Made by a program: the position numbers and the translations under genes. DNA of 25,459 nt from a virus: positions 1 to 25,459 of the IMG/VR virus record IMGVR_UViG_3300017963_002492; one strand, given 5' to 3'. The notes beneath the pieces are model-generated. The model made no database searches and was not told the origin of the DNA. It saw only the letters and a program-made list of their open reading frames with translations. Below, in pieces: positions 1,296 through 25,459 of this stretch. How positions within the stretch are numbered: position 1 is the stretch's first letter; each line of letters starts with the position of its first letter.

Positions 1296-1587
1296 TCGCC
1301 CCCTCTGGCCCATCATCGTCGCCGTAATGGGCGATGGAGGCATCATCTTCCTGAGCCCGCCTCACGATGAGGTGCCGATCTCGTTTGAATTCGGCGTCGA
1401 ACTTCTCGCGGAGTGCGTGAGGAACCTTGAGTGGGCCAATCAGCCCGAGTGCGCCCTGGGCCTCTTCTTCAACGAGGAGTGCGCCCCGATCGATCTTGCC
1501 GAGCGCATCCGAGACGGCGACACGTTCCCCGAAGCCGTCAGGACGATGGTAATGGGCAAAGCCGCGCTGCTGTCGCTGCTCCGCTAG
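1255..1587 (+). CDS. Hypothetical protein, about 110 aa
   Basis: An acidic protein with a hydrophobic N-terminal stretch (LWPIIVAVMGDGGIIFL) that looks like a beta strand pair rather than a membrane segment, followed by two helices rich in Glu and Leu. I recognise no family. The start is uncertain: ATG at 1255 is given, but GTG at 1243 or ATG at 1270 are also in frame and none has a clear Shine-Dalgarno sequence. The gene overlaps the nuclease by 41 bases in another frame. It ends in TAG inside a CTAG that is shared with the convergent peptidase gene. Confidence 0.6.
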   Translation: MVSATMPHVADSADRPLWPIIVAVMGDGGIIFLSPPHDEVPISFEFGVELLAECVRNLEWANQPECALGLFFNEECAPIDLAERIRDGDTFPEAVRTMVMGKAALLSLLR

Positions 1588-2252
1588 GGAAGCTGCTTCA
1601 CGTAACCGCTGGCCGTCTTCCGTAGCACCTCGTTGCGATTGGTGCCACTACGCCGGTAGGAGATGTGGACGTGCGACGACTGATCAGGGTCGTACCAAAC
1701 GAGTTGGTCGAACTTGACCTTGCCCTGGTCGCGCAGCCTCACCACCATCGCGGCGATCTCCTGGCTGGTGAGCGTCTTGCCGATGAACTTGAAATCGGCA
1801 GCTTCTCCGAGTAGGTGCTGCGAGCCGCACGGCGTGTTCGTCCGTGCTGCGATGCGGAGCGCCGTCGCGCTGTTCGGGGCCTTGTTTCCCGGGAACCCGT
1901 GGTTGCGGCAGAGGAGCGACCCTCCGATGGCGTCGTTCACGGCAGGCGACCGGAAGGCCGAGGTGATCCGCACTGGCCCGTAAGCCTCCCGAATCGGGTC
2001 TAGCGCGTTTTGCACGAGGGCCCGAAGGTTCGCGACGACGTAGCCTTCTTCCGCATCCGGCGGCTGGTTGCTCAAGCCCTTGGCCCGCGCCGTGCTACTG
2101 ACGAGCATTTCGGGCAGCGTGAAGTATTTGCCGAGTCGCACACCTGTACTGATACGGGGCGCAGAGCGCCGACGCATAGCGAGGATGCCCACGACGCTGA
2201 CGGCTACGCCGCCGAGGAACAACGGGTTCAAGTACAGGGGCTGCTTTGCCAT
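1584..2252 (-). CDS. Membrane-anchored M15-type D,D-carboxypeptidase/peptidoglycan peptidase
   Basis: The 222-residue protein starts with a single membrane segment (about residues 10-25), followed by Arg-Arg-Arg, so the catalytic part is probably held at a membrane. Residues 42 onward match peptidase M15_3: FTLPEMLVSSTA, LDPIREAYG, ITSAFRSPAVNDAIGGS, SQHLLGEAADF and HVHISY. The zinc ligands are most likely H146, D153 and H196 (or H194). Family members cleave peptidoglycan stem peptides. Oddly, about 31 residues (113-143, bases 1824-1916) with two cysteines (C115, C142) separate the GGS and SQH elements, which are normally nearly adjacent. The gene has no Shine-Dalgarno. A TAGTCT box lies six bases before the ATG, so it is probably leaderless, and it diverges from the gene at 2290. 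Confidence 0.85.
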   Translation of the reverse strand: MAKQPLYLNPLFLGGVAVSVVGILAMRRRSAPRISTGVRLGKYFTLPEMLVSSTARAKGLSNQPPDAEEGYVVANLRALVQNALDPIREAYGPVRITSAFRSPAVNDAIGGSLLCRNHGFPGNKAPNSATALRIAARTNTPCGSQHLLGEAADFKFIGKTLTSQEIAAMVVRLRDQGKVKFDQLVWYDPDQSSHVHISYRRSGTNRNEVLRKTASGYVKQLP

Positions 2253-3329: not shown

Positions 3330-5033
3330 ATGCCCGCAGACAACAACAACGCCCTTCGGGCCATGGCCGTCGCAATTCAAACCCCCGGCCTCTCGATCAC
3401 GGTGGAGGGCAAGAAGAAGCGAATGCTCGGCCTTCCGGTCCTCCTTTGGGGACCACCGGGTGTGGCGAAGACGGCGTTCGTCCAGCAGCTTGCCGACAAG
3501 CTCGGCTTCTACCTGATCACGGTCCTGGCTTCGCTCCGCGAGCCGTCCGACTTTCTGGGCCTTCCGATCCCCGGGACGAGCCGACGTGCTGCCGAGAAGG
3601 CGGGGCTCCCGCCCGGTGTGGACCAGCAGATCGTGGGCGACATGCTCGATGCCGACTACATGCAGGGCGGCAAAGAGTTCGGAACGAACCTTGAGGTTCG
3701 GCGGGCTGAGTTCGATCAGGTGCAGTACGCGCCGCCGGACTGGGCGCTCAAGTGCTTGGAAATGGCCGACGACCCGGATGCCAAGAACGTCGGCAAGGGG
3801 CGACGAGTCCTCCTCTTCCTCGATGAGTTCGCGACCGCCAGCCCCCAGGTCCAGGCCGCGCTCCTGCGCGTCGTCCACGAGCGCGTCGTGGGCGACCTTC
3901 AGCTTCCGTCGAACGTGGCTGTCATCGCCGCTGCGAACCCACCGTCCATGAGCCCTGGTGGCTCCGACCTCACGGCTCCGACCGTCAACCGCTTCATCCA
4001 CCTCGACTGGATGCCGCCGAGCAAGAAGCAGTGGGCCGATTTCGTCACGGGCAAGCGGAGTTCGTCGCTGCAACTGCCGATCTTCGGAGACGCCGGGGGC
4101 GTGATCTCAAAGAGCCTCAATGAAGCCTTGAACACGTTTGACGACGCCGAGCGCACTCGACGGCTTGCGGCAGTCCAGACGCAGCGCCGACGAGCGGCCA
4201 TCACGGGCCTCGTGGAGTTCAACGAGGCGTACCAGACGCGCGGTGAAGGCTCGATCACGGAGCTTGCGGCGAAGTTCATCCTCGACCCGAAGAACGCAAA
4301 GCCCGCGAGCTTGAAGCGCGCGGCAAAGGCATCGGAGAAGGGAACCGGGACGTATGCGGAGTACAGGGAGTTTGAGCCCCTGTTCGCGATGCCCACCAAG
4401 AAGGTGTTTGACCGGCTCCAGAAGGCCGAGCCGTTCCAGGCCCAGAACCTTGCGTGGGCTTCTCCCCGGTCCTGGGAGATCGCGCTGCGCGCCGTTGCCG
4501 GAGCCTCTGCTTGCGGACTCGGAGCAGCGGCTTTCGGGCAGGTTGTCCAAACGCTCCTCTGCGGGACCATCGGCCCTGCCTACTGCGATGCCTTCACGAA
4601 GTTCATTCGGAACGAGTACAAGAGCGGGCTGCGGACACCGGAATCGATCCTGGCTGCTGGGCCCGCAAAGTTCGTCGCGGCGCTTCCCAAGACCAGCGAT
4701 GCAAAGGCGTTCGATGCAAACATTGCCTACGCCTCCTCGCTCGCTCGCTTTGGCCTGAACAGTTCCCTCGACGCGCCCGATGGGCTGGGGCGTCTTCCCG
4801 AAGTGCTCGCTTTCCTTGACGAGATCACAGTGAAGGGAGCAGGGCAGCGCGGGCTTCCCTACGACCGCGTCGTGAATCAGCTTCGCTCTGAGCTTCGCGA
4901 GTTCAAGGACGACAACGCCCTCCCGCCTGCGGCCAACAACGCAGTGAACAGCTGGCTGCGCCAGCGGGAGCAGGACACGCAGCGTGCCGTTCGGGACATG
5001 GGCATCGACCTCGACTTTGGGAGCTTCGGCTGA
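3330..5033 (+). CDS. MoxR-type AAA+ ATPase
   Basis: The 567-residue product has a clear AAA+ core in its first 290 residues: Walker A GPPGVAKT (41-48), Walker B VLLFLDEF with D165 and E166, a sensor-1 Asn (N203) in AAANPPSMSPGG, and TVNRF near 218-222 as in MoxR proteins. MoxR ATPases act as chaperones that remodel partner proteins, usually encoded next door and usually carrying a von Willebrand A domain. Here the partner gene, coupled by a one-base TGATG overlap, carries no VWA motif but half a helicase. The C-terminal half (about 290-567) is helical and not recognised. A Shine-Dalgarno-like GGAGA supports the start. A phage packaging or virion-assembly role and an anti-host role are both possible. 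Confidence 0.85.
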   Translation: MPADNNNALRAMAVAIQTPGLSITVEGKKKRMLGLPVLLWGPPGVAKTAFVQQLADKLGFYLITVLASLREPSDFLGLPIPGTSRRAAEKAGLPPGVDQQIVGDMLDADYMQGGKEFGTNLEVRRAEFDQVQYAPPDWALKCLEMADDPDAKNVGKGRRVLLFLDEFATASPQVQAALLRVVHERVVGDLQLPSNVAVIAAANPPSMSPGGSDLTAPTVNRFIHLDWMPPSKKQWADFVTGKRSSSLQLPIFGDAGGVISKSLNEALNTFDDAERTRRLAAVQTQRRRAAITGLVEFNEAYQTRGEGSITELAAKFILDPKNAKPASLKRAAKASEKGTGTYAEYREFEPLFAMPTKKVFDRLQKAEPFQAQNLAWASPRSWEIALRAVAGASACGLGAAAFGQVVQTLLCGTIGPAYCDAFTKFIRNEYKSGLRTPESILAAGPAKFVAALPKTSDAKAFDANIAYASSLARFGLNSSLDAPDGLGRLPEVLAFLDEITVKGAGQRGLPYDRVVNQLRSELREFKDDNALPPAANNAVNSWLRQREQDTQRAVRDMGIDLDFGSFG

Positions 5034-8000
5034 TGGCGACGGCTCCGGTGATTCTGGAAGCGGAACCTCGCGCCCTTCGCGCGACAGAAGACGCCGGAGG
5101 GCGCATCTATGCGCCCCGGATGGCGGCGCTGTCCGACATGGTCGTGAGCACGCTCATCGCGGACGAAGGCGAACAGGTCATTGAGGATCGGGGCGAGGGG
5201 CGTGTGCTCGTTCCCTGCGGCCACATCATCTTCAACGAGACGCTGGCCCTTCAGGCCATCGCTCTCGTGGATCTCGCGTGCGCGCTCGCGCGTGCGAGGA
5301 CGGCTGTTTTCGGCGGCTACCCGCCACGGCTGTTCCAGGGGCGCAAGGCCCTCAAGGATCAGCCGAATGAGACGGAGATGATGGCCGAGCTTCGGGGCTG
5401 GAATTTCTGGCCGCGCACGCTGAATGCCGTCATGTACGCGGCTACAGCGCACTTCTCAGATGAACCTTTCCGAGCCGTCATTACGCCTTTGGGCGCGACT
5501 CCGCTGGGCCGCACGGCGACGAACTACCCGAAGCTGACGGCGTACCTACAGGAGCAGTGGAAGAAGTCGCAGTACGAGATACAGGGCTCGTCTGGTGACG
5601 TGATCCGACGCCCCTACAAGGAGGACTTCGCTCCTGGGCGCGGTTACGAGGGCTGGTCGCCCGTGGAGTTCACCCGGGCCATGCAGCGCATGGTCGTGAT
5701 CAACGGTGAGGTGCTGGACGACAAGGAAGTCGGCAAGATTCGCGAGATCGGGGAGCAGTTCAACGGCGTCGTGCAGAAGGCCGACGACGGGGCGCTCTAC
5801 GTCCCCGAGCCGTCAGGGGACGACAACGAACCCGTGTGGGCGAAGCCCGATTACGACATTGTGATCGGTGGCGCGCAGATTTATGAGGGCGTCGATCTTC
5901 AGGTGCGGACCTGTGCGATCCACCACCTCGATCAGCCTTGGACGCCAAACGTCCTCACGCAGCGGAATGGCCGCGCAGTGCGGCAGGGCAACCTCTTCTC
6001 CAACGTCTCGGTCTACGCCTACCTCACGGACGGCTCGATCGACTATTACAAGTTGAATCGCGTGCGAGGGCGAAAGGCATGGCAGGACACCGTGCTGTCC
6101 AAGGGCCGCGCTGACGCAAGCATCGGTGGCGGGAACACAGAAGCGATCATCGACCTGATCGTCAAGGTGACGCCCGTCAAGTATCAGGCTGAGATGCGCG
6201 AGCGCGTGCGTAAGCAGTTTGAGCTACTGGCACGACGGAAGCGGGCTCGCATCGCCTCGCGCCTCCTCAACCTCTTCCGGGGCATCGCCGGGGACGGGAC
6301 TGCCGGGGCCAAGCGCCGCGCCGCTCTGGCGGCGTACCTCCCAATGCCGAAGTTTTTTGAGGTCTACCTCGCGCAGCCTATGCCGCCCAGCAATGCGCGA
6401 GCGGCGGCTGAGACGGCGCAGGAGCTTGGCGTTGACCAGCCCGCAGCGCAGGAGCTTGCGAACGTAATTGCAGACGCATCCCGCTGGAATCAAGCCTCGG
6501 GGCTATCCGAGCAGGCCATGCTGACGGGGAACGCGGCGGCTGAGTTTGAGCGTGTAAGTGACCAGAAGGGCGCGCTACTAGAAGCCGGGTTCTCCTCTGA
6601 ACCCCCGGAATGGCTCGCCCGGTTTTTCGACGCGCAGATCGTGACGCCCACCTTCCGCGACAACCTCGTGACGGATTTTCTCGGAGAAGGCGTTGCGACT
6701 TCACTGCCCGTCGATGTGACGACAACGAAGTCGTTGGTCGCCGTGGGGGACTTCATCCCGGGAGACGGGGCAGGCACGTATGTCTCGCAAATGGGCGTGA
6801 CGGTTCGGTTTGAGCTTACGGATCGCAACGTAGACGGTGCCCCCGAGATTCAGGCCACGGCTTTTACGACTCGGCCTTTTGGGATAAGTGCCGTGAACCT
6901 GGGCAACCTGAATGATCGTGGGCAGATCGTCCCGAAGCAGCCCGTGCTGCTGGAGCCAACAGACCCGAAGCCAACGGACGACAAGATTGCCGTGCTGCGG
7001 CTTCCCAGGCCGCTGGCGCATCTGGTGGACGAGGAGGGCCCGCGCCAGTACCTCTGGACCTACGACTTCGCCAACATCGACCCGGCCCCACTGGCACTCG
7101 CTACAGCCCGCTACAACGGGCTCCCGATCGAGGTGGCTAAGGGGGCCGGGACCACGGACAGGGCTGAATACTTCGCGCTGGGATCCGACGCATCCACGGG
7201 CATCGACCCGTTTCAATACATTCCACAGGCACTCCAGGGCCGGATGCCGTCCGCTTCCTACTACTCAGCGAAGCTAGGAAGGAATGCTTTTTGGGACACT
7301 CTTGGTCCCAACGAGCAGGAAACAGTGCTGTCAGGCAGCATGCCTCAAGACTTCTCCTCCGTCGAAATCAGCGCCCGGGGACTGGACGCCTTGTGGCCGT
7401 TGAATGCGGACAAGACGCGCGTCGTCGCAGAACTGTTCCTCCGCGCCGCGTGCCTTCAAGCCGACCCGCAGTATTCCTTCCCCTCGCCCCTCATGCAGCA
7501 CGTCGCAACGAACATACGCGCCGACGCGCGAGCGATGCTTCGCACGCGCTCAGGCAAGTTCCCGCCGATCGATGAGCAGAAGACGCAGGCGGCAAGCGAG
7601 GGGCTGAACCTGGGCGACGTGCTGTACCCCGGCTTCGCTCCGCGTGCGATTTTCGACTCTGCGGAGGTGTCGGCGGAAGGCGTGACCTTCACGTCCATCA
7701 CGGACGAGGACGGAAAGCCGGTCCACTTCGCGGACTACCACGACTTCATCACGCGCGTGCGCGAGGCATCCGTTGTCGGCGGCTTCAACTTCGACCCGCT
7801 GGTGTGGCGCGGTGCGCTTCAGGTTCCGGCTGATTTGGCCTGGGACGAAGAGCGCCGACTCTTCAGCCAGCCGCTCGCAAGTAACCAGCTTCCGACCTAC
7901 GTCCCAGCGGTCTACCCGCAAAGTGACCGATTGGTCATCGCTGAGTACCTGGGCCGTTTTAAGAAGGCAGCGGAGGCGGCTGAAGTCAAGGTGCGGAATG

Positions 8001-8566
8001 CGGTGGCAAAGGCCACGACCCCCGTTACAGCGGGCCAGCAGGAGTTGCCGACAAGCCCGAAGCTCTGGCCGGTTATCGGTGATAAGACGCATTTGGTGAC
8101 TTTTGCTTTGGACCCCGAAGACACCCTCGCTGTATTGCGCGACATAGCCCTCGGCAACCCGCTGTCCCACCCCGCCGGAACGAACCCGGAAGCACTCTTC
8201 TTCATCCTCCGCAGTAGCGCAGGTCCGCGCCTTCTCGCGATCCCGGTGCAATGGCAGGGTAGGGAAGGGGTCTTGCGGGGGAAGCAGGGCACCCTCGACG
8301 GCTATCAGGTCCGCTACTTCCGGCTCGATCTTGATTCTCTAGAGGAGATCGCAGGGTTCGCGGAAGGACTCTCGTCCGCTATGGAAAGCCTCCTCGACGC
8401 GCCTGCCAATGGCTTTATCTCAAGAGGCATAGATGTGGCGGAGACGGGGCGGCAGCAGTTGAACCTTCGCAGTGATAAAGGCACCACCCTCGGTCGGCTT
8501 GTGCTTCCGTCTTGGGTCGGATCGATCCGCTTTAGTGAGGGCTTCCTCCTCGTGGACGACGTGTAG
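5033..8566 (+). CDS. Large protein with an orphan SF2 helicase C-terminal lobe
   Basis: The 1177-residue protein contains helicase motifs V and VI at about residues 277-320: YEGVDLQ, HHLDQPWTPNVL and QRNGRAVRQGN, then a VYAYLTDGSIDYYKL strand and helix. These match the second RecA-like lobe of SNF2/SF2 helicases found in phage DarB-like and methyltransferase-linked proteins. The first lobe is missing: residues 1-276 contain no Walker A (GxGKT) and no DEAH-type motif. Residues about 360-440 are Arg-rich and helical. The remaining 700 residues are unrecognised and mixed alpha/beta, with many aromatic and acidic residues. Translation is coupled to the MoxR gene. Possibilities are a regulatory or DNA-binding helicase relic, a protein completed in trans, or an ejected virion protein. 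Confidence 0.75.
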   Translation: MATAPVILEAEPRALRATEDAGGRIYAPRMAALSDMVVSTLIADEGEQVIEDRGEGRVLVPCGHIIFNETLALQAIALVDLACALARARTAVFGGYPPRLFQGRKALKDQPNETEMMAELRGWNFWPRTLNAVMYAATAHFSDEPFRAVITPLGATPLGRTATNYPKLTAYLQEQWKKSQYEIQGSSGDVIRRPYKEDFAPGRGYEGWSPVEFTRAMQRMVVINGEVLDDKEVGKIREIGEQFNGVVQKADDGALYVPEPSGDDNEPVWAKPDYDIVIGGAQIYEGVDLQVRTCAIHHLDQPWTPNVLTQRNGRAVRQGNLFSNVSVYAYLTDGSIDYYKLNRVRGRKAWQDTVLSKGRADASIGGGNTEAIIDLIVKVTPVKYQAEMRERVRKQFELLARRKRARIASRLLNLFRGIAGDGTAGAKRRAALAAYLPMPKFFEVYLAQPMPPSNARAAAETAQELGVDQPAAQELANVIADASRWNQASGLSEQAMLTGNAAAEFERVSDQKGALLEAGFSSEPPEWLARFFDAQIVTPTFRDNLVTDFLGEGVATSLPVDVTTTKSLVAVGDFIPGDGAGTYVSQMGVTVRFELTDRNVDGAPEIQATAFTTRPFGISAVNLGNLNDRGQIVPKQPVLLEPTDPKPTDDKIAVLRLPRPLAHLVDEEGPRQYLWTYDFANIDPAPLALATARYNGLPIEVAKGAGTTDRAEYFALGSDASTGIDPFQYIPQALQGRMPSASYYSAKLGRNAFWDTLGPNEQETVLSGSMPQDFSSVEISARGLDALWPLNADKTRVVAELFLRAACLQADPQYSFPSPLMQHVATNIRADARAMLRTRSGKFPPIDEQKTQAASEGLNLGDVLYPGFAPRAIFDSAEVSAEGVTFTSITDEDGKPVHFADYHDFITRVREASVVGGFNFDPLVWRGALQVPADLAWDEERRLFSQPLASNQLPTYVPAVYPQSDRLVIAEYLGRFKKAAEAAEVKVRNAVAKATTPVTAGQQELPTSPKLWPVIGDKTHLVTFALDPEDTLAVLRDIALGNPLSHPAGTNPEALFFILRSSAGPRLLAIPVQWQGREGVLRGKQGTLDGYQVRYFRLDLDSLEEIAGFAEGLSSAMESLLDAPANGFISRGIDVAETGRQQLNLRSDKGTTLGRLVLPSWVGSIRFSEGFLLVDDV

Positions 8567-13777: not shown

Positions 13778-13810
13778 GGCACGCGCATGGCCCGTGGGCC
13801 ACGTACATCG

Positions 13811-13845
13811 GGCCCCCGGCAGACTTCTTCTGCCGGGGGCCTTTT
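13811..13845 (+). terminator. Intrinsic terminator
   Basis: A perfect 13-bp stem (13811-13823 with 13829-13841), a five-base loop and TTTT directly after it form a classical factor-independent terminator. It lies between the DUF669-like gene and the polymerase, so polymerase expression depends on readthrough or on a promoter not recognised here. Confidence 0.85.
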
Positions 13846-13862
13846 GCTTGGAGAGACGCACG

Positions 13863-16460
13863 ATGAGGTACGACCCGAGGACCGAAGGGGCGCGCTGCGA
13901 CGAGTGCCCCATGAAGCGATGGCACGGCGCAGAATGGGCTCCGGTCCCCGGCACCGGCATGGGCACGCTCCTGCTCACGGACGCCCCCGGCCCCAGGGAC
14001 AAGCGCCATCTCTTCGCAGGCGAAGACGGCACGGAACTGAACGACGGCTTGAACGCCGCTGGGATTTCGCGCGCGAACTGCCGAACCGACGCAGTGATCG
14101 CGTGCAGGCTCCCGAAGGCGATGAAAGGCAAGTGGGACCTGATCGCGGCGAAGCTCCGCAAGGAGAAGAAGCAGACCGGCGTTGCGCCGCCGCATCCTGC
14201 GGAATGCTGCGCTCCGCGTCTTCAGCCGTCCCTGGACGCCGCGCAGCACATCGTCGCGCTGGGCGGTCCCGCCGCGTCCCGAGTCCTGGGCGGCAAGCCG
14301 TCGATCATGGGCATCCGAGGCACGCCGATCACGCTGGACGATGGCCGCAAGGTCTTCCCTACCCTGAGCCCCGGTGTCGTGCGCGCTGCGCGCCGCTGGC
14401 GCAAGGTCTTCGCCGCCGACCTCTCACGCGCGCGGCGCTTCTTTGAGGACCGCTTGCTCTGGTCCGCGCCGCGCATCCAGTACACCCCGCGCTTCTATGA
14501 GGTGGTGGAGTTTTTCTCGCATCCGTCCCGGTGGTGGTCCTACGACGTGGAGACGGACGCGCGCGACCCGCTGCAAGCGAATCTCCGCTGCATCGCGATC
14601 AGCCGAGACGCAACCCCGGCGGAAGCGGACCAGGGGTATCCCGATGCCTGCATCGTCATTCCGTTCCGCTCGCTGGAATTGGAAGGGGAGCACCCGCTGT
14701 ACGACGCCGAGGAGTACCAGTTGATCGTGGACTACCTGCGGCGCGTCCTCACCGATGGGCGGCTGTGGTGCGGCCACAACGCGGGCTGGTACGACCGTCT
14801 CGTCATTGAGGAGCAGTTGGGCGTGACCCCGAAGCCGCTGCTGGACACCATCCTCCTCGCGCGGCTGGTAGCCAGCGAGTTGCCGAAGTCCCTGGGCGTC
14901 GTCGGATCCATGTACATCGACCTCCCGAGCGCATGGAAGCAGGACAACGAGGGCCTGAAGCTGTCCGTCGCAGCGCGGACGGACATGGAGTTGTGGGAAT
15001 ACTGCGCGCTCGACACCGCCGTGACGCACCGCTGCGCCGAGAAGTTGGTCGCGGGTACGCGGGAACGCGCACAAGCCGTGACGTGCGCGGCCTACCCGTC
15101 GATGACACTCGTGGAGTTGGATCACAAGATTCAGGACTTCTGCGCGGGGCTCACGCGCACGGGCATGTACATCGACCGGGAAGCGCAGCGGGTCATGGAG
15201 GCAGACCTCACGCAGCGCGTCGATGATGCGCGGCTCCTGATCGACCAGCGGTCCCCCATTGGGGCGATGAACCCAGCCTCCGTGTATCAGGTGCGCGACG
15301 TGCTGTACTCGTCCAAGGGCTTTGGGCTCGACCCCGTCGAGTTCACGGACGCGGGCGACCCAAGCACGAACGACGCCTCGATCCGCGCGTACCTCATGCG
15401 CTCCGGCCTCGACCCTGCGGCCCGGTCCTACTTGCTGGCGCTCCGTACCTTCCGCAAGGCGCACAAGCTCCTCACCGGGTTCGTGCGGCCTCTCAAGCTC
15501 CGCTCCGAGCACCCCGACGTGGGGGTGCTGGACGACGACGGACGGCTCCGCGTGGCGTGGTCGGCCCACGTCCCCGTGACCGGACGCCTGAGCAGTTCGC
15601 AGCCCATGAACGTCCAGAACTGGCCGAAGGAGCTACGCAAGCTCGTGATCCCCGCGCCGGGGAACATCTTGGTGGGCGCGGACTACGACCAGTTGGAGGG
15701 CCGCATCGGCGCGGCGCGCTGGGGCCTCAAGCGGTACTTGGAGGCATACGCAACGCCGGGAATCGACCCGCACCAGATCACGATGGAATTCTGCTTCGGG
15801 CAGCGCATTTGGAGCCTGCCGGGTGCGCCCAAGGAGCGGTACAAGAAGAAGGGCGACGGCTGGGAAATCAGCGGGAAGTTCAACGAACTGCGCCAGCTAG
15901 CGAAGTCCTACTACTACGCAAAGCAGTATTCATCGGGCGATGAGACGGTCCACGGGCTGCTCCAAAAGGTGGAGGACACAGACCCGGATACCGGCGAGCC
16001 CATCTTCCCGAACGCGGGGCTGAAGGTCGAAGAGGTCGCGGCCATGAGTCGCAAATTCCTCGCCGCGTGCCCCGAATTGGAGCGCGGCTGGAAGCGGGAG
16101 AAGGCGTACTACGACCGCTACGGGTGCAACGTCGAGCCCCTGACCGGACGGCGTCGAGACTTCCTCGATGGCTTCGACCTTCCCGAAGTCGTGAACTTCC
16201 CAGTGCAGGCGTCTGGCGCTGCGCTTATGAACATCGGCACCGTGCGCCTGATCGACGCTGGGTGGTCCTGCAACTACACGGGACCGGGCACCGGGCCCAT
16301 CCAGCAGGGGCACGATGCTCTCGTGGTCGAAGTGCCGGAGGCACACGCGGAGGACGCGCGGCGCGCTTTGGAATGGGCCATGACGCAGGAGCATCGCCGG
16401 ATCTACGACGTGGTCTTCAGTGCAGAGGCAGAGATTGGACGCCGCTGGTACGACGTGTGA
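13863..16460 (+). CDS. Family A DNA polymerase fused to a UDG-like domain
   Basis: The 865-residue protein has three parts. Residues 1-190 resemble family 4 uracil-DNA glycosylase: C12-x2-C15, TDAPG (39-43), then C81 and C115/C116 in ACRLPK and CCAPRL, the usual Fe-S ligands. The catalytic-type HPA motif reads PTLSPG (166-171), so the histidine is replaced by serine. Residues 220-430 are a 3'-5' exonuclease with YDVETD (D228, E230), GHNAGWYD and YCALDTA, all three Exo motifs intact. The rest is polymerase: motif A DYDQLEGR (D607), motif B-like RQLAKSYYYAKQY, and motif C HDALVVEVP (817-825), where the usual HDE is HDA. No 5'-3' exonuclease is present. Start at 13863 is placed after the terminator, with GGAG at 13850. 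Confidence 0.92.
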   Translation: MRYDPRTEGARCDECPMKRWHGAEWAPVPGTGMGTLLLTDAPGPRDKRHLFAGEDGTELNDGLNAAGISRANCRTDAVIACRLPKAMKGKWDLIAAKLRKEKKQTGVAPPHPAECCAPRLQPSLDAAQHIVALGGPAASRVLGGKPSIMGIRGTPITLDDGRKVFPTLSPGVVRAARRWRKVFAADLSRARRFFEDRLLWSAPRIQYTPRFYEVVEFFSHPSRWWSYDVETDARDPLQANLRCIAISRDATPAEADQGYPDACIVIPFRSLELEGEHPLYDAEEYQLIVDYLRRVLTDGRLWCGHNAGWYDRLVIEEQLGVTPKPLLDTILLARLVASELPKSLGVVGSMYIDLPSAWKQDNEGLKLSVAARTDMELWEYCALDTAVTHRCAEKLVAGTRERAQAVTCAAYPSMTLVELDHKIQDFCAGLTRTGMYIDREAQRVMEADLTQRVDDARLLIDQRSPIGAMNPASVYQVRDVLYSSKGFGLDPVEFTDAGDPSTNDASIRAYLMRSGLDPAARSYLLALRTFRKAHKLLTGFVRPLKLRSEHPDVGVLDDDGRLRVAWSAHVPVTGRLSSSQPMNVQNWPKELRKLVIPAPGNILVGADYDQLEGRIGAARWGLKRYLEAYATPGIDPHQITMEFCFGQRIWSLPGAPKERYKKKGDGWEISGKFNELRQLAKSYYYAKQYSSGDETVHGLLQKVEDTDPDTGEPIFPNAGLKVEEVAAMSRKFLAACPELERGWKREKAYYDRYGCNVEPLTGRRRDFLDGFDLPEVVNFPVQASGAALMNIGTVRLIDAGWSCNYTGPGTGPIQQGHDALVVEVPEAHAEDARRALEWAMTQEHRRIYDVVFSAEAEIGRRWYDV

Positions 16461-19119: not shown

Positions 19120-19303
19120 TGACGTGAGCCTCAACCTGAAGGGGGAGTTGCAGCGCCGCAAGGACGCTGCGGACCTGTGTTGGGTGTGGGGCGGGGATGA
19201 GATCCAGGCGGTCTACCGCGAGTCGTTGGAGGAGGCTCTGGCCTTCGCCAAGCAGTTCACGGACGAGACGATCGATTCGACCACGAAAGGGAAAGAACCA
19301 TGA
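19112..19303 (+). CDS. Small hypothetical protein, 63 aa
   Basis: An acidic 63-residue protein beginning MKSDVSLNLKGELQRRKDAADLCWVW, with a helical second half (YRESLEEALAFAKQF). No family is recognised. Its ATG overlaps the TGA of the SMC-like gene and its end overlaps the next gene by ATGA, so translation is coupled on both sides. Confidence 0.65.
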   Translation: MKSDVSLNLKGELQRRKDAADLCWVWGGDEIQAVYRESLEEALAFAKQFTDETIDSTTKGKEP

Positions 19304-19863
19304 CCCGCACTCTCAACGACGTGCCGACCCTCTCGGTCGGCGCCCACCGCGACCCGGCTGCGGGCATGTGCGCCATGGAAGCTGCCGCGTGGCTGGCCGG
19401 AGAAGAGCATTCGGATCGCCCGAAGTGCGTCTGCCCGGTGTTGGCTGCCGCATGTCGTCAGGCAAACGATGATGGTGACGACACCGTCCGGGAGCGGCTG
19501 CGGCAGATGCTCCCGGTGCTGATCGGCACGCGCTCGACCATCGAGGTCGAGCGCCGTCGCGCCTACACATTCACGGATACGGCGGTGAGGGTCCTCGCCC
19601 CGCTTGCGCTGGATGCTGCGGGGCTGGGGGCGGAAGCGGAGCGTCTGCGGGCGCTTCCGCCAGTGGTCGACCGGACCACTGCACGCGCCGCCGCCGTCCG
19701 CGCCGCCGACGCCGCCGTCTGCGCCGCCGCCGTCCGCGCCGCCGCCGTCCGCGCCGCCGCCGTCCGCGCCGCCGACGCCGCCGTCTGCGCCGCCGACGCC
19801 GCCGCCGTCTGGGTGTCGCTGCTCGACGCAATCGAACGGGCAGCGAAGATTGGTGGCGAGTGA
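19300..19863 (+). CDS. Hypothetical protein with Ala-Val-Arg repeat, 187 aa
   Basis: The first 125 residues look like an ordered helical domain with CVCPVLAAACRQANDDGDDTVRERLRQMLPVLIGTRST in pieces, which resembles short hypothetical proteins seen in high-GC phages; the function is unknown. Residues about 129-170 are a low-complexity tract of AAAVR and AADAAVCA units. The final helix (WVSLLDAIERAAKI) resumes ordinary composition. The tract could form a long alanine-rich helix. AAAGAACC precedes the start, with GAAAGG further upstream giving weak ribosome-binding support. Confidence 0.65.
   Translation: MTRTLNDVPTLSVGAHRDPAAGMCAMEAAAWLAGEEHSDRPKCVCPVLAAACRQANDDGDDTVRERLRQMLPVLIGTRSTIEVERRRAYTFTDTAVRVLAPLALDAAGLGAEAERLRALPPVVDRTTARAAAVRAADAAVCAAAVRAAAVRAAAVRAADAAVCAADAAAVWVSLLDAIERAAKIGGE
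19686..19810 (+). repeat. Imperfect tandem GCC-rich repeat
   Basis: About 125 bases of GCCGCCGCCGTCCGC-type 15-bp units, with interspersed GCCGACGCCGCCGTCTGC units, encode AAAVR and AADAAVC. Units remain in frame. Such tracts expand and contract by slippage. Confidence 0.8.
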
Positions 19864-20240: not shown

Positions 20241-20475
20241 CATGCGCTACGCGATCCAAGGCGTCGAGCGCAGGATCCTCGACGCCTTGGACGAGGGCAC
20301 GGTGCTACGTGCGGCAGTACGAACACCTACATGGACTGACGGCGACCGGCTGTTGAAGCTGGCCCGTCTGCTGCGCCAGCGCGAAGAGGCGCTGCGATGG
20401 CTGGCCTACGCCGAAGACCTGCCTAGCGGGCTCACCGAGGTGGCCGCCCCCGAATCGAGATACACGGGGATGTAG
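20224..20475 (+). CDS. Small hypothetical protein, 83 aa
   Basis: A helical protein (MRYAIQGVERRILDALDEG, then LLKLARLLRQREEALRWLAYA) with no recognised family. GTG at 20224 follows AGGA at a good distance and overlaps the previous gene by 17 bases; ATG at 20242 is an alternative without a ribosome-binding site. The last codons and the TAG stop lie inside the acceptor stem and following positions of the tRNA-Ala gene. Confidence 0.6.
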   Translation: MSFATDMRYAIQGVERRILDALDEGTVLRAAVRTPTWTDGDRLLKLARLLRQREEALRWLAYAEDLPSGLTEVAAPESRYTGM

Positions 20476-20541
20476 CTCAGTTGGGAGAGCATCGGCTTTG
20501 CAAGCCGAGGGTCAGGGGTTCGACCCCCCTCATCTCCACCA
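20466..20541 (+). tRNA. tRNA-Ala (UGC)
   Basis: A full 76-base cloverleaf: acceptor GGGGATG with CATCTCC (one G-U), D arm with AGCTCAGTTGGGAGAGC, anticodon stem TCGGC/GCCGA around TTTGCAA with anticodon TGC (20499-20501), T arm GGTTCGACCCC, discriminator A and an encoded CCA. It reads alanine codons. It overlaps the end of the gene at 20224. Confidence 0.95.
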
Positions 20542-20544
20542 AAT

Positions 20545-20620
20545 GCCGCTGTAGCTCAATTGGTAGAGCTACTGATTTGTAATCAGTGGGTTGTAGGTTC
20601 AAGTCCTATCAGCGGCCCCA
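20545..20620 (+). tRNA. tRNA-Thr (UGU)
   Basis: 76 bases, three after the first tRNA: acceptor GCCGCTG/CAGCGGC, D arm AGCTCAATTGGTAGAGC, anticodon stem ACTGA/TCAGT around TTTGTAA with anticodon TGT (20578-20580), T arm GGTTCAAGTCC and encoded CCA. It reads threonine ACA and related codons. It is likely co-transcribed with tRNA-Ala. Confidence 0.95.
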
Positions 20621-20656: not shown

Positions 20657-21088
20657 ATGCCGAAGTTCAGCAGCAGTTCCCGCAGCCGATTGGAGACGTG
20701 TGACCCACGCCTTCAGGCCCTCTTCACCGCCGTCGTGGAAACGCACGACTGCACGATCCTTGAGGGCTTGCGGACGCTAGAGCGCCAGCAGGAGCTTTAC
20801 CGGCAGGGCAAGTCGAAGCTCGACGGCGTGAACAAGAAGAGCAAGCACCAGAGCGACGACGGCGTCAGCCGTGCCGTGGACGTGGCCCCGTATCCGATCG
20901 ACTGGAATACGCACCAGCCCGCCGTCGCAAAGCGGTGGCTCGACTTCGCGCGTGCCGTGCTCGCGGAGGCCGAGCGCCAGGGAACCTCTGTGCGCTGGGG
21001 CGGCGACTGGGACGGCGACTGGGACCGTGTCTCCGACCCGACCCTCGACCAGTCCTTCAACGACTGGCCGCACTGGGAACTGCGCTAG
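20657..21088 (+). CDS. T5-type M15 L-alanyl-D-glutamate endopeptidase (endolysin)
   Basis: The 143-residue protein matches the M15 peptidases related to the T5 endolysin: ILEGLRTLERQQELYRQGKSK, SKHQSDDGVSRAVDVAP, VRWGGDWDGDWD and FNDWPHWEL. The zinc ligands are H64, D75 and H139. Enzymes of this type cut the L-Ala-D-Glu bond of peptidoglycan stems and lyse the host. No signal peptide or membrane segment is present, so export would need a holin or another route; several small membrane proteins elsewhere in the window are candidates. It is distinct in sequence from the M15 peptidase at 1584. The gene is leaderless and ends in the CTAG shared with the minus-strand operon. Confidence 0.9.
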   Translation: MPKFSSSSRSRLETCDPRLQALFTAVVETHDCTILEGLRTLERQQELYRQGKSKLDGVNKKSKHQSDDGVSRAVDVAPYPIDWNTHQPAVAKRWLDFARAVLAEAERQGTSVRWGGDWDGDWDRVSDPTLDQSFNDWPHWELR

Positions 21089-23442: not shown

Positions 23443-23448
23443 ATGCTA
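23443..23448 (-). promoter_or_regulatory. Leaderless -10 box of the polyglutamine protein gene
   Basis: Read on the minus strand this is TAGCAT, six bases before the ATG at 23436. Its TAG is the stop codon of the dehydrogenase gene. Confidence 0.5.
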
Positions 23449-24369
23449 CGCCCGCTTTCGCAAATCTGCTAGCAAACTCGTGACGGGGCCGAGGTCCGAA
23501 AGCCGCATGTAGGGCTCGTCGCTTGCGACCACGTTGGCGTACACAGCCTTGTGGAGATCGGTGAATCCGCTGGAGAATTCCAGCCGCGTCCCCTTGCCGC
23601 TCCAACAACTGTCGGTAGACGTGTCGGGGAAATGCAGCGTCAGTTCCCGGTGGCTCTGCTGCGTCGGATACGGCAGGTACTTGCGGTCGATGGACAAGAG
23701 GAAGTCGATCACCGTGTCCTTGAAGACGACCACGCCCATGGCCTCACGAGTCGTCAAGGAGCCGATTGAGACGGACTGATGCTCACCGAAAATCCAGCAC
23801 AGCGCATCGAGCATGTGGATTCCGATGTTCGCGAGGATGCCGCCGCTCCGACTCGCATCGCCCTTCCATGACCAGTCGTACCACTGGCCCCGAGGCGTGA
23901 CATAGGTGAGCGTGCCCATGCTGGGGGGCTGGGGGGCCGTGAGGATCGACTCACGGAAGGTCTGTAGCTTTTCCGAAAGCCGCAGTTGGTGGACCGGGTA
24001 GATGCGCTTCCCGGTGTCTTTTTCCAGCGCGAGCAGCAAATCGAGATTGCGCGGGTTGACGACGACGGGCTTTTCGCATATCGCGTGCGCGTCATTCCGT
24101 AGAGCCAACCGGCAGTGCGCGTCGTGCAGGTAGTTCGGGGAGCACACCGAGACGTAATCCACGCCCTCTCCGTCGCGCCGCAAGCGGTCCAAGTGCCGCT
24201 CAAAGCGTTCCACCTCCGTGAAGAAGTGGCAGTCGGGGAAGTACCGATCGATCACGCCGATGGAATCGTGCGGGTCCACGATCGCGACCAGATCCCCGCC
24301 GATCGCCTTGATGGCTTCCATGTGCCGGGGGGCGACGTAGCCACCCGCCCCGATCAGAGCAAAACGCAT
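23446..24369 (-). CDS. WlbA/WbpB-type sugar-nucleotide dehydrogenase (Gfo/Idh/MocA)
   Basis: The 307-residue protein starts with the Rossmann motif FALIGAGGYVAPRHMEAIK, followed by DPHDSIGVIDRYFPDCHFF, YVSVCSPNYLHDAHCRLALR and CEKP with K100, then GGILANIGIHMLDALCW. These blocks match WlbA/WbpB, which oxidises C3 of UDP-N-acetylglucosaminuronic acid with NAD on the way to diacetamido-uronic acids of lipopolysaccharide. The length is close to the family norm of about 315. In a phage this could alter host surface glycan or supply a sugar for virion glycosylation. AAGGAG lies seven bases before the ATG, which overlaps the stop of the glycosyltransferase gene (TGATG). The partner enzymes (6-dehydrogenase, aminotransferase, acetyltransferase) are not in the window. 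Confidence 0.9.
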   Translation of the reverse strand: MRFALIGAGGYVAPRHMEAIKAIGGDLVAIVDPHDSIGVIDRYFPDCHFFTEVERFERHLDRLRRDGEGVDYVSVCSPNYLHDAHCRLALRNDAHAICEKPVVVNPRNLDLLLALEKDTGKRIYPVHQLRLSEKLQTFRESILTAPQPPSMGTLTYVTPRGQWYDWSWKGDASRSGGILANIGIHMLDALCWIFGEHQSVSIGSLTTREAMGVVVFKDTVIDFLLSIDRKYLPYPTQQSHRELTLHFPDTSTDSCWSGKGTRLEFSSGFTDLHKAVYANVVASDEPYMRLSDLGPVTSLLADLRKRA

Positions 24370-25459
24370 CACCGCACTCCTTGAATGTGCTCATACAGGC
24401 TGCGCCAGCGCGCGGTCACGCTTGCTGCGCCGTGGGTCCGCTGGGCCCACTCGATCTGAGGACGCTGCGTGTCTGCATCGCCCCAAAGGCCCCGAGCAGC
24501 GGGGTTCGCCACGTCGAGACGGATGGCCTCTGCCAGCTCGTGCTCGTCCCGCACGCGCCTGACCGGAGCATCCGGGTGGATGGACTTCGACCATGCGTTC
24601 AAGTCGGAGTAGACCGTGTGGCCCAAGGCGATCGACTCTGCGCCGCTCATGCCGTAGATCCCAACCGCGAACTGATCGAACGTCGCGTGGCACGTCCGCT
24701 TGATCTCCATGCACTCCTCGTTCGACTTGCCTTCAATCACGACGGCTTCGACGGGGACGCCGTCAGCCTTCAACGCATCCACCACGTCGAGGAACACTTC
24801 CGTCTTCTTGAACCGGCGGTTCGTCGTCGGGTGGCAGATCCGGTACACCCCCTTGCCGCGCCATGCCGGAGCGCGCCGAGCGAAGACGTGGTCGGGGACA
24901 ATCAGGGGCATGTGGTACGGGAGCCAAGACCGCTCCAACATCGTCCAGTCCCAGGCCGAGACTCCCATGATGCCGGTGTGCTTGTGCCACGCCATGTACT
25001 CGTGAGCGTGCTGCCGCAGCGGTGAACCGAGGTACTGCACGAGGCAGTTGTGCGGCGTCAGAATCTCGCGCCAGTCCAGCTTGCCCACGCTGACCGGGTG
25101 CCGAACGAAGTGGAAAAACCAGTCACGGCTCGACACCAGTTCGTACAGCGGTTCCACGTCGTCCAAGTCACTGAGGACCAGCGCATCGTCGGGCAGCGGG
25201 AAGTCGATGTAGTCCTGCTGGAGCACGATGCAGGGAGCGCCCATCGCCTGCGCGAGGTAGCCCGCTTGACCGGCTGCGTTCGTGTCCGTCACGAACAGGA
25301 CCGGGCGCGTCTTCGCCGTTTCAGGGGCGGGGACATGCCTGCGGGGCGTCCACCCCTCAAGGTCATGGGACTGCGTCTCTAGCCAGTGGAACCCAGCCGC
25401 AGCCGCCATTTCATCCTTGGCTTCCTGCGGGATTACCAGCGCGCCCCCGTGCTCAAGGC
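24369..25459 (-). CDS. GT-B glycosyltransferase (5' end outside the window)
   Basis: The frame is open to the right edge, so the N-terminus is missing; at least 362 residues are present. The region ICHPTTNRRFKKTEVFLDVVDAL, VEAVVIEGKSNEEC and FDQFAVGIYGMSGAESIALG in pieces is the C-terminal Rossmann half of GT-B enzymes of GT4 type, where the GMSGAESIALG loop takes the place of the nucleotide-sugar binding E-x7-E region (E in SGAESIA). The N-terminal half has LFVTDTNAAGQAGYLAQAMG. The acceptor is unknown. It is co-transcribed with the sugar-nucleotide dehydrogenase, so it probably transfers the sugar made with its help. It is also upstream of putative virion genes. Confidence 0.8.
   Translation of the reverse strand, partial: LEHGGALVIPQEAKDEMAAAAGFHWLETQSHDLEGWTPRRHVPAPETAKTRPVLFVTDTNAAGQAGYLAQAMGAPCIVLQQDYIDFPLPDDALVLSDLDDVEPLYELVSSRDWFFHFVRHPVSVGKLDWREILTPHNCLVQYLGSPLRQHAHEYMAWHKHTGIMGVSAWDWTMLERSWLPYHMPLIVPDHVFARRAPAWRGKGVYRICHPTTNRRFKKTEVFLDVVDALKADGVPVEAVVIEGKSNEECMEIKRTCHATFDQFAVGIYGMSGAESIALGHTVYSDLNAWSKSIHPDAPVRRVRDEHELAEAIRLDVANPAARGLWGDADTQRPQIEWAQRTHGAASVTARWRSLYEHIQGVR

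Follow-up and report, generated by a model that had tools for sequence, protein, structure and literature searches.

Methylase-SWI2/SNF2 proteins of the polyvalent or DarB type are known from phages and plasmids, P1 DarB being an example (PMC5512222), and a metallopeptidase-vWA partner of the MoxR ATPase has been described for jumbo phages (PMC7824862). The locus reported here comes from a viral record in IMG/VR; the window refers to the whole stretch of DNA analysed, 25,459 bases in length. A first-pass annotation of the window had described a MoxR gene coupled to a gene for a 1177-aa protein carrying part of a helicase. In SF2 motors the two lobes face each other across the ATP site, lobe 1 bearing the Walker A and B motifs and lobe 2 the motif VI arginines, and because of this arrangement both RecA-like lobes are almost always kept in one chain.

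The MoxR gene and its junction with the downstream gene

The MoxR gene is a complete ORF (Table 1). Its product matched Pfam AAA_5 (E = 2.4e-9) and AAA_3 (2.9e-7), as well as the PHROG ATPase family (PHROG 1297, 4.8e-36), which supports its description as a canonical AAA+ ATPase. It contains a Walker A motif (GPPGVAKT, residues 41-48), a Walker B motif (LLFLDE), a sensor (AAANPP) and NRF, and showed 38-52% identity with the MoxR of the syntenic phage G002, described below. The proposed TGATG overlap with the 1177-residue gene was found at T5031-G-A-T-G5035, and the coordinates of both genes were borne out; a GGGAG is present nine bases 5' of the second ATG. Read at the level of sequence, the overlap would favour co-production of MoxR and the 1177-aa protein.

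Table 1. Features of the MoxR/half-helicase locus in the window.
Feature	Coordinates	Strand	Evidence
MoxR-type AAA+ ATPase, 567 aa	3330..5033	+	Pfam AAA_5/AAA_3, PHROG 1297; identity with G002 MoxR
Ribosome-binding-like site GGGAG (5019-5023) and stop/start overlap TGATG (5031-5035)	5019..5035	+	sequence read
1177-aa protein P0002: SNF2-type lobe 2, then C-terminal arm	5033..8566	+	profiles, alignment, tree, AF2 model
Complete lobe 2 (second RecA-like domain), residues ~26-362	5108..6118	+	alignment to G002H 2476-2906, G007H and L055H; AF2 model
Motif IV strand CGHIIF, residues 62-67	5216..5233	+	alignment; predicted strand E63-67
Helical insert between lobe-2 strands 1 and 2, residues ~94-209, low confidence	5312..5659	+	alignment, model
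Motif V YEGVDLQ, residues 284-290	5882..5902	+	sequence
Motif VI QRNGRAVRQGN, residues 310-320, arginine fingers intact	5960..5992	+	sequence
C-terminal arm, residues 430-1177	6320..8563	+	without recognisable relatives

The 1177-aa protein

The 1177-aa protein is composed of a complete SNF2-type lobe 2, of the polyvalent/DarB kind of SWI2/SNF2 translocase found in large phages and mobile elements, and a long C-terminal arm, and lacks lobe 1. Residues 275-404 matched phage SNF2/methylase-helicase families (E = 9e-23 and 1e-22), including PHROG 1685, 11801 and 10089 (E from 9e-23 to 1e-14), and the matches to these families were confined to residues 270-411. These profile matches indicate that the SF2 motifs V and VI noticed in the first-pass annotation are real; Pfam Helicase_C, taken alone, scored below its own cut-off on this protein. 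No methylase match was found in the 1177-aa protein.

Neither profiles nor tblastn with lobe 1 of two close relatives detected a lobe 1 in the 1177-aa protein or elsewhere in the window, all frames included. The view that residues 1-276 are without lobe 1 is upheld by these searches, but the region is not blank, as it forms the front of lobe 2 and includes the motif IV strand. A divergent P-loop lobe 1 hidden in these residues was the alternative to consider; the profile and tblastn searches gave none, and the AlphaFold model of residues 1-430 corresponds to lobe 2.

This AF2 model, built with 35 aligned sequences, had a mean pLDDT of 65 (74-93 in the core) and shows the lobe-2 layout in the order found in the protein: a helix, the motif IV strand, an insert of ~130-150 residues, and then motifs V and VI. 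Strand E63-67 is separated from strand E220-223 by ~150 residues that are predicted to be helical with low confidence. The model matched the second lobe of MtISWI, other SNF2 motors and FANCM (Foldseek E = 2.5e-5; VIA-align Z 13-15), with identities of 10-22% over the aligned residues. With a pLDDT of 41, a full-length AF2 model of the protein was set aside.

The start of the gene coincides cleanly with the lobe boundary, and coding-like GC by codon position extends over all 1177 codons. Of 57 near-invariant lobe-2 positions, 41 (72%) are retained, compared with 47/56, 43/54 and 43/58 in full-length relatives. Judging from its sequence, it looks like a kept gene rather than debris. For residues 430-1177 no match was found in phages, PHROGs, the profile of the C-terminal part following the helicase in G002 and G007, or the ORFs of the genome loci, so that the ~700 further residues listed as unrecognised were without a match in any comparison made.

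Relatives of the half-helicase

Relatives were sought by means of the motif VI codon pattern, and the phage contigs G002 (IMGVR_UViG_3300025141_000040, 105.7 kb) and G007 (IMGVR_UViG_3300045738_001144, 18.1 kb) were among those found, with helicases of 3703 aa (G002H) and 2685 aa (G007H), respectively. A third relative, the 2430-aa helicase L055H, is encoded by the MAG contig CALFRK010000049 (L055). G002H and G007H align with the 1177-aa protein from residue 14-26 to ~440, and L055H aligns with it in the motif IVa-VI part. In all three helicases motif I (DVGVGKT), motif II (DEAH; VIDEAH in G002H and G007H) and motif III (LTATP) are located upstream in the same chain. They have in common a lobe-2 insert, long in G002H and G007H and shorter in L055H, and no methylase was found in them either, whereas the bacterial relatives carry one.

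A tree of 65 lobe-2 rows placed the 1177-aa protein with L055, G002 and G007, all three full length, with support of 100/96. None of the other three has a branch as long as its own (2.36 vs 0.25-1.19 in the clade), which makes its precise position less certain than the support implies. The long branch could mean relaxed or changed function. According to the first-pass annotation, a full-length helicase as the closest homologue would point to a simple truncation. The closest homologues are in fact full-length helicases, but the clean start, the intact motif VI and the number of near-invariant positions kept do not fit simple decay. The G002/G007/L055 group does include a case of fission, since in G007 an overlapping ORF of its own encodes the C-terminal part that follows the helicase.

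Among 85,000 prokaryote genomes scanned, 64 relatives were identified, mostly Myxococcota methylase-SNF2 proteins. Lobe-1 profile matches were in the same ORF in 60 of these 64 relatives and in an overlapping upstream ORF in two, and the other two were cut by a contig end. Genomes of Nannocystis and other Myxococcota encode several of the large methylase-SNF2 proteins (L046-L109; 1,700-2,900 aa, Eco57I + SNF2), L057, L058 and L082 being copies within one Nannocystis genome; these multi-copy loci look like a conflict or mobile family. Loci L004-L006 were discarded as relatives, their neighbour genes being similar in size but unrelated (methylase-helicase giants, other phage genes). Among viral contigs, a scan with the pattern YEGxDLQxRT retrieved G002 and G007 only, single-sequence scans with the 1177-aa protein and with MoxR gave no confirmed relatives, and a scan for a stand-alone lobe-1 partner gave none, in a set of contigs from which near relatives of the window may have been left out.

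Genome context and MoxR partners

Genes for replication and recombination in the window include those for a PD-(D/E)XK exonuclease, Sak4, PolA and SbcC-like proteins. Synteny with G002 comprises the exonuclease, g2290, Nudix, MoxR, Sak4, PolA, SbcC, Gfo/Idh and a glycosyltransferase-like gene. The helicase of G002 maps at ~60-71 kb, ~60 kb away from its MoxR gene (7-8 kb). Downstream of the latter come three ORFs, one of 205 residues, one for a DUF2201_N metallopeptidase and one with a VWA (VDTSASV); the last two represent the metallopeptidase-vWA partner known from jumbo phages (PMC7824862). The MoxR partner of G002 is split in two adjacent ORFs, one for the metallopeptidase part and one for the VWA part (L032:3843-6270, minus strand). 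A partner gene also follows MoxR in N4 and in phage SBP1. In the window, the half-helicase occupies the place of the G002 metallopeptidase/VWA genes. It is not a truncation in place, because the G002 helicase is far from MoxR and the metallopeptidase/VWA pair is found there instead.

Searches of the window by tblastn with the G002, N4, SBP1 and L042 partners detected no VWA or metallopeptidase, nor was there a suitable ORF with HExxH or DxSxS (MIDAS), in agreement with the initial observation that a VWA domain is lacking beside MoxR. Among the 64 bacterial and three close phage/MAG relatives, none had MoxR beside the helicase, and G007 and L055 gave no MoxR match. A weak MoxR-profile match in L101 was dropped, as it had no AAA match in Pfam. 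The same MoxR/half-helicase pair, for which a search of phage genomes had been recommended, was found neither in the relatives nor in the viral-contig scans. A working MoxR/half-helicase pair is possible, with one example.

Other genes of the window were also observed. The family A DNA polymerase encoded at 13794-16460 carries, in the same ORF, a uracil-DNA-glycosylase-superfamily domain at its N-terminus (PF03167, residues 61-195) and is 51% identical to that of G002. Two tRNA genes, tRNA-Ala (TGC) and tRNA-Thr (TGT), are adjacent at 20466-20620, and two separate M15-type peptidase genes were found at 1584-2252 (minus strand) and 20657-21088 (plus strand). The ORF at 19300-19863 contains a repeated, Ala-rich stretch (AAVRAADAAVCAAAVRAA...). 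At 23446-25457 (minus strand) a Gfo/Idh-type oxidoreductase gene adjoins the glycosyltransferase-like gene, both of them present in G002 too; these are perhaps conserved sugar-modification genes of the G002-type phage group.

Discussion

The explanation that we prefer, and to which we give about an even chance, is that a polyvalent/DarB-type SWI2/SNF2 translocase was split in two genes, with lobe 2 working in trans with a lobe 1 encoded elsewhere in the phage. Lobe 2 would have reached the MoxR operon through gene fission, and the 1177-aa protein would dock in trans with a lobe-1 polypeptide, the product of a gene beyond the 25 kb fragment. It would supply its motif VI arginine fingers to the lobe-1 ATP site and would still be an ATPase half; that motif VI was kept intact makes sense if the lobe-1 polypeptide comes from elsewhere in the phage. 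More tentatively, MoxR would act on its own as an AAA+ chaperone, produced alongside the half-motor, and may help to assemble the split enzyme or may merely be co-expressed with it. Against the split motor, no lobe-1 gene was seen in the 25 kb of the record, which is a fragment, or in the viral-contig scan, the example is a single one, and its branch is the longest in the clade.

The half-helicase takes the exact position of the DUF2201_N and VWA genes of G002, none of which was found in the window, and this would also be consistent with its having been repurposed as a client or adaptor of MoxR that replaces the metallopeptidase/VWA co-chaperone, with MoxR remodelling or loading it (on DNA or the virion) and lobe 1 uninvolved. 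The TGATG coupling and the fast-evolving branch point in the same direction. We consider this unlikely: the intact motif V and motif VI arginines would be unneeded by a non-ATPase adaptor, coupling in a phage operon does not require the neighbours to interact, the VWA gene could simply be located outside the fragment, and there is one example only. It is decidedly doubtful that the VWA/metallopeptidase co-chaperone was swapped for a detached SNF2 lobe 2 with a new 750-residue arm, forming a two-gene machine in which MoxR would remodel the half-motor or load it on DNA. A decaying remnant, that is, a duplicated or displaced functionless 3' end of a giant helicase, would account for the missing lobe 1, the C-terminal arm without matches and the long branch, and an intact copy may exist elsewhere in the phage; however, the 1177 codons are open and coding-like in GC by codon position, the start and ribosome-binding site are exactly at the domain boundary, and near-invariant residues are kept at a level close to that of the full-length homologues, which makes a remnant rather improbable.

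The separation of the two genes by ~60 kb in G002 could point to a chimeric contig in which MoxR was joined to the middle of a helicase gene. Such a join is very unlikely because both flanks of the junction are co-linear with G002 (exonuclease and MoxR on one side; Sak4, PolA and SbcC on the other), and a random join would not yield a ribosome-binding site and a TGATG overlap at a domain boundary. The least probable of the readings is the suggestion in the first-pass annotation that MoxR, as an AAA+ ATPase, replaces the missing lobe and makes up a composite helicase together with the SF2 lobe 2. Adjacency and translational coupling are the only points in its favour, but the established partner of an SF2 lobe 2 is a RecA-like lobe 1 on the other side of an ATP site, and MoxR hexamers use their own arginine fingers, which come from the neighbouring MoxR subunit. 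Moreover, the MoxR of the window keeps its complete set of ATPase motifs, from Walker A to NRF, and the pairing was seen in none of the 64 + 3 relatives.

If the two lobes are separate phage genes, as the split-motor explanation proposes, the locus would represent a natural split motor, testable for trans assembly and expression control. To our knowledge, the targets of phage MoxR proteins are essentially unknown, and the link with MoxR could show what such targets are.

With respect to known systems, the PDB SNF2/SF2 motors (MtISWI, FANCM) are alike in the second lobe, and the 1177-aa protein has only one of the two lobes. An identity with DISARM DrmD was rejected, since the NCBIfam equivalog scored 29.6 bits against a cut-off of 610 and only the shared motif region matched. 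The giant helicases of G002, G007 and L055 share the lobe-2 insert and differ from the 1177-aa protein in having lobe 1 in the chain. Polyvalent/DarB-type proteins have in common with it the lobe-2 motifs YEGVDLQ, IHHLDxPW and QRNGRxVRQGN, as well as the insert after lobe-2 strand 1, but their members contain lobe 1, usually with a methylase, in one chain, whereas neither is present in the 1177-aa protein or in the 25 kb fragment. The MoxR of the window belongs to the same family (PHROG 1297) as that of the phage MoxR-metallopeptidase/vWA pairs (N4 gp24/gp25; jumbo phages, PMC7824862); the partner genes are present in those phages, while in the window MoxR is accompanied by a half-helicase instead.
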